Shown here: positions 14,525 to 14,950 of the stretch, one piece after another | How the letters are laid out: the number at the start of each line of letters is the position of its first letter | How positions within the stretch are numbered: the first letter of the stretch is position 1 | Source of the DNA: Flavobacterium stagni | GTDB lineage: Bacteria; Bacteroidota; Bacteroidia; Flavobacteriales; Flavobacteriaceae | Length of the DNA stretch: 64,000 nt | Direction of reading: 5' to 3' | Assembly (NCBI RefSeq): GCF_004122105.1 | Contig: NZ_SBKN01000001.1 | Location: 558,001-622,000 of the forward strand | Notes under the pieces: generated by a model | Database searches by the model: none | Told to the model about the DNA's origin: nothing | The model's input: the letters and a program-made list of their open reading frames with translations, nothing else | Program-made: the position numbers and the translations under genes

Positions 14525-14595
14525 GGCGTCGTGGCCGAGCGGCTAGGCATCGGTCTGCAAAACCGCGTACCCCGGTTCGAATCCGGGCGATGCCT
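14525..14595 (+). tRNA. tRNA-Cys (anticodon GCA)
   Basis: A 71-nt cloverleaf. Acceptor stem GGCGTCG pairs with CGATGCC (one G-T pair), the anticodon loop contains GCA flanked as CTGCAAA, the T-arm is CCCGG-TTCGAAT-CCGGG, and the discriminator base is T(U), as expected for cysteine. CCA is not encoded. It is the intact founder of the decayed repeat array that follows at 14644-14934. Confidence 0.95.
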
Positions 14596-14603
14596 CTTCC
14601 AAA

Positions 14604-14632
14604 AACCTCTCAGAAATGGGAGGTTTTTTTTA
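14604..14632 (+). terminator. tRNA-Cys terminator
   Basis: Stem AACCTCTC / GGGAGGTT (one T-G pair) with loop AGAAAT, followed by a T run. The same hairpin is repeated behind each decayed tRNA copy downstream. In the last two copies the 5' arm has become AACGGCTC, which breaks the middle of the stem. Confidence 0.85.
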
Positions 14633-14643
14633 TTGGAAAAAAT

Positions 14644-14934
14644 GATTACAAAACCGCGTAATCGGTTCTCCCGATGTTTCGGGACGGGCGATGCCTCTTA
14701 CAAAAAACCTCTCAGAAATGGGAGGTTTTTTTTATTGAAATAATAATCATTACAAAACCGCGTACTCGGTTCTCCCGAAGTTTCGGGACGGGCGATGCCT
14801 CTTGAAAAAACGGCTCAGAAATGGGAGGTTTTTTTATTGGAAAAAATGATTACAAAACCGCATACTCGGTTCTCCCGAAACTTCGGGACGGGCGATGCCT
14901 CTTCCAAAAACGGCTCAGAAATGGGAGGTTTTTT
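14644..14934 (+). repeat. Tandem array of three decayed tRNA-Cys 3'-half copies, each with a palindrome in the T-loop
   Basis: Three units start near 14644, 14749 and 14849, spaced by about 104 and 100 bases. Each repeats the tRNA-Cys anticodon-arm 3' side (CAAAACCGCGTA or CAAAACCGCATA), the T-arm 3' strand plus acceptor 3' strand and flank (CGGGCGATGCCTCTT), and the hairpin CTCAGAAATGGGAGGTTTTTT. In place of the normal T-loop each carries a 14-base palindrome: CCCGATGTTTCGGG (14670-14683), CCCGAAGTTTCGGG (14774-14787) and CCCGAAACTTCGGG (14874-14887). The GCA anticodon and all 5' tRNA parts are missing, so none can be a tRNA. Confidence 0.85.
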
Positions 14935-14950
14935 GGAAATTAGGTAATTA

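Follow-up and report, generated by a model that had tools for sequence, protein, structure and literature searches.

Mobile elements of bacteria are well known to settle at tRNA genes. The rtT/tyrT repeats of E. coli are arranged in tandem behind a tRNA gene and include part of its 3' end; to our knowledge, they are found at a single locus and without a nuclease. REP palindromes are associated with RAYT transposases, and we know of no link between UPF0213 or SLX1-type GIY-YIG proteins and tRNA copies. SegB of phage T6 is a GIY-YIG homing endonuclease that cuts within tRNA genes; its preferred motif, RAWTSGAAC, was present at 23 of 83 sites and is helpful but not strictly required, and the enzyme causes a segment with tRNA genes to be amplified in tandem (PMC13096335). 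In the literature searched, this study was the only relevant one (PMC13096335); no description was found of cassettes such as those reported here, nor of homing nucleases that target tRNA genes on bacterial chromosomes.

The window analysed here is a stretch of 64,000 nucleotides of Flavobacterium stagni (contig NZ_SBKN01000001.1, positions 558,001 to 622,000), in which an intact tRNA-Cys gene is followed by an array of three units of about 100 bp. The features of this locus, in window coordinates, are as follows.

14525 to 14596, forward strand: intact tRNA-Cys, anticodon GCA (ARAGORN; Rfam RF00005, 56.4 bits)
14575 to 14583, forward strand: T-loop GTTCGAATC of the intact tRNA-Cys, fitting GTTCSAWTY, the reverse complement of the SegB motif RAWTSGAAC (PMC13096335)
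14604 to 14631, forward strand: terminator hairpin of tRNA-Cys (by eye)
about 14649 to 14698, forward strand: copy 1, tRNA-Cys from the anticodon loop to the 3' end, T-loop swapped (from the sequence)
14669 to 14684, no strand assigned: palindrome TCCCGA-TGTT-TCGGGA replacing GAATC in copy 1 (from the sequence; exact match)
14705 to 14735, forward strand: copied terminator of unit 1, both arms intact (by eye)
about 14753 to 14802, forward strand: copy 2, 3' part of tRNA-Cys, T-loop swapped (from the sequence)
14773 to 14788, no strand assigned: palindrome TCCCGA-AGTT-TCGGGA in copy 2 (from the sequence; exact match)
about 14853 to 14902, forward strand: copy 3, 3' part of tRNA-Cys, T-loop swapped (from the sequence)
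14873 to 14888, no strand assigned: palindrome TCCCGA-AACT-TCGGGA in copy 3 (from the sequence; exact match)
14905 to 14935, forward strand: copied terminator of unit 3, left arm decayed (by eye)

The arrangement given in a preliminary description of this DNA, a tRNA-Cys followed by three partial copies of about 100 bp with their terminator, was confirmed in the sequence, by ARAGORN and by Rfam. Each copy extends from the last base of the anticodon to the 3' end of the tRNA and is followed by a terminator-like stretch, and the palindromes are spaced 104 and 100 bp apart. The reported replacement of the T-loop by CCCGA-N4-TCGGG was present in 3/3 copies, where GGTTC-GAATC-C of the tRNA has become GGTTC-TCCCGA-N4-TCGGGA-C; a 16-nt palindrome, located exactly in each copy, thereby replaces five bases (tRNA positions 57-61), and TTC is retained. 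The palindrome centres differ (TGTT, AGTT and AACT) between kept arms, as had been claimed, and the decay noted in the terminator of the last two units was found as a change of the left arm from CCTCTC to CGGCTC. The 5' strand of the T-stem, ACCCCGG in the tRNA, reads AATCGG, ACTCGG and ACTCGG in the copies; because it is changed in all three, the T-stem of the copies is not intact. No ORF of at least 80 aa lies between 14596 and 14951, and an Rfam scan of the window at gathering scores matched tRNA alone, with no match to the rtT RNA model. Like the rtT/tyrT repeats, the window array consists of tandem repeats with the 3' part of a tRNA; unlike them, arrays of its kind occur at several loci and have nuclease-linked relatives. 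The palindrome resembles REP elements in being short, with constant arms and a variable centre, but shows no GTAG or CGTC tag by eye, and its position is tied to tRNA arms.

The tRNA-Cys gene lies between an upstream gene that we take to be folB-like and a downstream gene that is presumably LysE-like. A search of related genomes for the array behind tRNA-Cys, suggested in the preliminary description, found it in independent assemblies of relatives: in other genomes and named assemblies, the number of such units at the tRNA-Cys locus ranges from 1 to 6, and the gene upstream is mostly the same. In one relative (G037, locus L011), the same genes lie upstream and downstream, and the tRNA, terminator and downstream gene are directly consecutive with no array. 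An assembly artefact was judged unlikely because the loci of relatives, in independent assemblies of related genomes rather than of the strain itself, carry units in varying number and G037 carries none. A remnant of the attachment site of an integrase element was rejected as an account of the window array; no integrase lies between the tRNA and the copies, and the copies extend into the terminators, beyond the usual att core.

The palindrome TCCCGANNNNTCGGGA was also sought elsewhere, and it was found at 29 places in the same 3.18-Mb genome, compared to 0 for a reversed control pattern, so that its recurrence exceeds chance; it was likewise found at many isotypes in Bacteroidota assemblies. 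Twelve of the 29 exact palindromes lie within partial tRNA copies (Cys 3, Arg(TCT) 5, Leu(TAG) 2, Phe 2), and the other 17 lie outside tRNA copies, several being terminator-like and several in short degenerate intergenic repeats by eye. At L038, L040, L043, L044, L050, L177, L179 and L180 of this genome, the palindrome is found inside degenerate intergenic repeats (AAATTCC-, AAACTC- or GATTTGG-like). A scan that ignored the palindrome and used the final 12 nt of 37 other tRNA contexts in the genome revealed five copies behind Arg, two behind Phe and one each behind Pro and Thr, with 1 match in the upstream control; the Thr copy has a longer hairpin and the Pro copy has none. The Leu array is located about 12.8 kb from tRNA-Leu(TAG), and between them lies an island in which an integrase-like ORF was identified by eye (L223, G000:C11:987000-990600).

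The named genomes were scanned for GGTTCTCCCGANNNNTCGGGAC, which yielded at least 119 stretches, with 160 matches among those listed. Among these listed matches, 90/160 (in 64/119 loci) precede a 3' tail that matches a same-strand tRNA located no more than 2.5 kb upstream, 22/160 have an upstream same-strand tRNA with a non-matching tail, and 48/160 have no same-strand tRNA within 2.5 kb upstream, 22 of the 48 being near the start of the locus. Bacteroidota account for 151/160 of the matches listed, and the isotypes among them include Cys (20), Phe (16), Ala (12), Tyr (9), Met (8) and Pro (8). Exact TTCTCCCGANNNNTCGGGAC was present in 11/296 sampled genomes of the phylum, the genome of the window being among the 11. 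In Bacteroidales, an intergenic element, GGTTCTCCCGA-N4-TCGGGAC followed by AGGCTATC/AAGCTATC-like bases, was observed at L054, L061, L066, L069, L076, L092, L115, L122 and L125, with no tRNA near it at those nine loci; these palindrome matches of Bacteroidales lacking a tRNA link are a different thing. Other loci, among them tRNA clusters (L096, L109, L110 and L067) and L060, hold tRNA-like genes in which T- or D-loops are exchanged for CCGA hairpins (positions by eye), and at L060 a full-length T-loop-swapped tRNA-Ala lies upstream of an intact tRNA-Ala. At L055 and L077, the same palindrome is also present in the loop of the terminator hairpin behind swapped tRNA-Phe copies.

Behind tRNA-Phe in the genome of the window, the unit is 368 bp long, is present twice, and contains an ORF of about 95 aa encoding a GIY-YIG nuclease, which is broken by a frameshift in the second unit. 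PF01541 scored above its curated cut-off in 3/3 cassette proteins scanned, and the Y, YxG-type, R, H and E columns were invariant among 11 aligned cassette ORFs; the catalytic residues of GIY-YIG enzymes are thus found in the gene-bearing relatives, and the window array itself has no ORF. The best profile matches of the nuclease among solved structures were UPF0213 proteins (1zg2, 1.3e-8; 1ywl, 7.8e-8), followed by SLX1 (7cq2, 6.1e-4), placing UPF0213 and SLX1-type GIY-YIG proteins nearest to it by structure profile. With the Phe-type nuclease of this genome as query, tblastn found no match at E 1e-3 among 50,697 phage records, and 3 cassette proteins had no PHROG match.

A nuclease profile was built from 11 ORFs taken from palindrome loci and searched without any palindrome criterion; it matched 106/246 genomes of the order, a count that also takes in general GIY-YIG genes. 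Over all loci examined, 108/181 distinct ORF matches have a same-strand tRNA upstream at a distance of no more than 450 bp (Met 24, Phe 22, Ala 13, Arg 13, Asn 12, Val 9, Pro 3 and others), 60/181 have no upstream tRNA in the locus, and 13/181 have a tRNA farther away. Among the loci from the ORF-profile searches, the figure was 74/132, against a chance expectation of less than 1 by our rough estimate, where part of the set came from genomes pre-chosen by an array or terminator DNA match and 40 stretches were picked by hand from match lists. In the order-wide profile search, 23 of the 27 best-scoring loci (duplicates removed) had the ORF within this distance behind a same-strand tRNA. The full cassette, located behind a tRNA gene and its terminator, consists of a nuclease gene of about 95 aa, a partial copy of the same tRNA and a copied terminator. 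Cassettes occur in tandem, with up to seven copies at a period of about 381 bp (G371), and gene-bearing and gene-less units are mixed within the arrays of L258 and L260; the existence of such mixed arrays ties the gene-less array of the window to the nuclease cassettes, and this kinship is well supported.

At tRNA-Cys, a nuclease ORF was present in 0/29 contexts examined, of which 17 had a detected palindrome copy and three had little downstream DNA. A strong match to the Phe-type nuclease was absent from 4/5 other genomes with Cys arrays, three of the four being less than 90% complete and one (G097) 99%. A correlation of the array with any GIY-YIG gene is without power, as 26/27 same-genus genomes tested have some match. 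For tRNA-Ala(GGC), two distinct allele types were observed across L344-L373 and the cassette loci, with possible ORFs flagged by a loose motif at L367 and L369. The 12 cassette loci compared all carry one of these allele types, which is seen in 5/29 other loci and is confounded with clade.

In the cassette copy, one arm or loop, and sometimes two, is exchanged for a hairpin, and the part exchanged (T-loop, anticodon arm or variable region) differs with the nuclease lineage. A non-native hairpin with a tRNA-matching 3' flank was found in the partial copy of 86/108 cassettes, usually of CCG type in tRNA-gene copies behind the nuclease, and 22/108 showed none in this test, which demanded perfect arms, drew part of its loci by their palindrome, and probably includes a few A/T-rich hairpins that arose by chance. 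The main swap position is the T-loop for Phe and the anticodon arm for Ala, Arg, Val and Pro (some with a second hairpin); Met is swapped at the T-loop or the anticodon arm, and Asn at the variable region, the T arm or the anticodon arm. In the anticodon type, the entire 17-nt arm is replaced by a hairpin of 15-20 nt. When pairing was not required, these anticodon swaps had 4.31/6 pairs, compared to a shuffled mean of 3.52 and maximum of 4.15 over 1000 shuffles (n=26, anchored on the tRNA flanks, some misanchored). Furthermore, the outer arm pairs change in step between lineages (TCCCGA/TCGGGA, CCCCGA/TCGGGG, CTCCGA/TCGGAG); in the T-loop copies, the arms hardly vary and most loci were chosen by their palindrome, which makes the covariation test uninformative there.

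Nuclease lineage matches both tRNA isotype and swap position. On a tree of 79 nucleases, from which copies above about 90% identity were removed and which has few columns and many unresolved forks, isotype required 17 changes, whereas shuffles averaged 53.3; for hairpin position (68 rows), 14 changes were required compared to 30.4, with 0/500 shuffles as low in either case. Inside Met alone, position required 3 changes, reached by 11/500 shuffles, and inside Asn alone also 3, reached by 10/500. In these tree tests, including those within Met and Asn, the position of the swap thus tends to track the nuclease and not the tRNA alone.

Altogether, the window array is probably a gene-less form, non-autonomous or decayed, of a tRNA-parasitic GIY-YIG nuclease cassette of Bacteroidota. 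The role of the hairpin and the actual mobility of the cassettes are matters on which we infer the following. The nuclease would cut the tRNA gene where its copies carry the swap, and the copy and terminator would serve as homology arms that no longer contain the cut site; repair of the break between direct repeats could then insert, multiply or delete units, comparable to the amplification driven by SegB in phage. The published SegB motif corresponds to the T-loop on the opposite strand and overlaps the bases lost from the copies (PMC13096335); the GAATC lost in the window is the 3' part of its complement, GTTCSAWTY. In the genome of the window, the sole tRNA-linked nuclease found, that of tRNA-Phe, belongs to the T-loop type. 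So do the gene-less arrays with the palindrome (Cys, Arg and Leu), for which reason these arrays may have been made in trans by the Phe-type enzyme, or may be relics. The preliminary description had suggested that a tRNA insertion site gave rise to the duplication and that a hairpin may be under selection; both pointed in the right direction, but the GIY-YIG nuclease cassettes and the published cleavage motif at the swapped bases were missed. Its other readings, as small RNAs, a protein-binding array or a transcription-braking array, gained no support in this analysis. Against the cassette reading, it should be noted that the intact tRNA-Cys keeps its presumed cut site, and that a destroyed site alone does not account for the recurrence of the same CCGA hairpin. 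Also counting against it are the lack of the ORF in the 29 tRNA-Cys contexts examined, the four genomes with Cys arrays but no strong Phe-type match, the 17 exact palindromes located outside tRNA copies, and the 22 cassettes that showed no hairpin.

The hairpin could instead be a substrate, CCG-N-CGG hairpins being recognised by the small SLX1-like nuclease or by a host protein, with each unit carrying its own cleavage or regulatory site from which growth of the array starts. We regard this as rather unlikely, even though CCGA- or CCGC-ending hairpins recur at different tRNA positions in different lineages, the outer arm pairs covary (TC/GA, CC/GG, CT/AG) under a hairpin test that demanded perfect arms, and the structure profile matches include SLX1, a structure-specific nuclease; a free-standing site need neither follow the nuclease lineage in its position, as the hairpin does, nor remove bases of the motif preferred by SegB, as the T-loop-type hairpin does. 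The palindrome might instead be a separate mobile element that invades dispensable hairpin loops in tRNA copies and terminators, the nuclease genes being bystanders in tandem repeats, and its presence in the terminator loops of L055 and L077, in intergenic repeats of the window's genome and, within tRNA clusters, in tRNA-like genes of full length would agree with this. Such an origin is improbable, as it accounts neither for the correspondence between nuclease lineage, isotype and swap position nor for anticodon swaps that end at arm borders, and on these two grounds the palindrome alone was rejected as the sole cause. Ordinary decay, in which slippage duplication behind the tRNA terminator was followed by drift with no element involved, would fit a window array without an ORF and with decayed later terminators, but is very improbable and largely contradicted because the exact swap recurs, identical at many isotypes and genera, and a nuclease gene lies in the unit elsewhere.

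If the array is read as a gene-less nuclease cassette, the cassettes may provisionally be filed with the tRNA-linked GIY-YIG homing elements by their presumed way of working. SegB, a free-standing enzyme of a T-even phage tRNA cluster, resembles them in being a GIY-YIG enzyme linked to tRNA genes, with a T-loop motif and tandem amplification, but is a phage gene for which the accessible part of the study reports no arm-swapped partial tRNA copies (PMC13096335); the cassettes differ from it in their size of about 95 aa, their presence in bacterial genomes and their match to one tRNA isotype. More tentatively, they might constitute a new category of mobile element, a minimal nuclease cassette for one tRNA gene with a precise arm swap as its marker, in which the hairpin replaces the arm that the nuclease reads, so that the element would write its own target position, and gene-less arrays would spread or persist in trans. 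The cassettes point to a little-noticed family of tRNA-gene parasites, and offer an example from nature of a nuclease whose gene persists next to an essential gene that it probably cuts. Dozens of natural combinations of nuclease, isotype and swap position form a set for reading the target choice of GIY-YIG enzymes of about 95 aa, and the cassettes could explain many of the partial tRNA genes in Bacteroidota assemblies.
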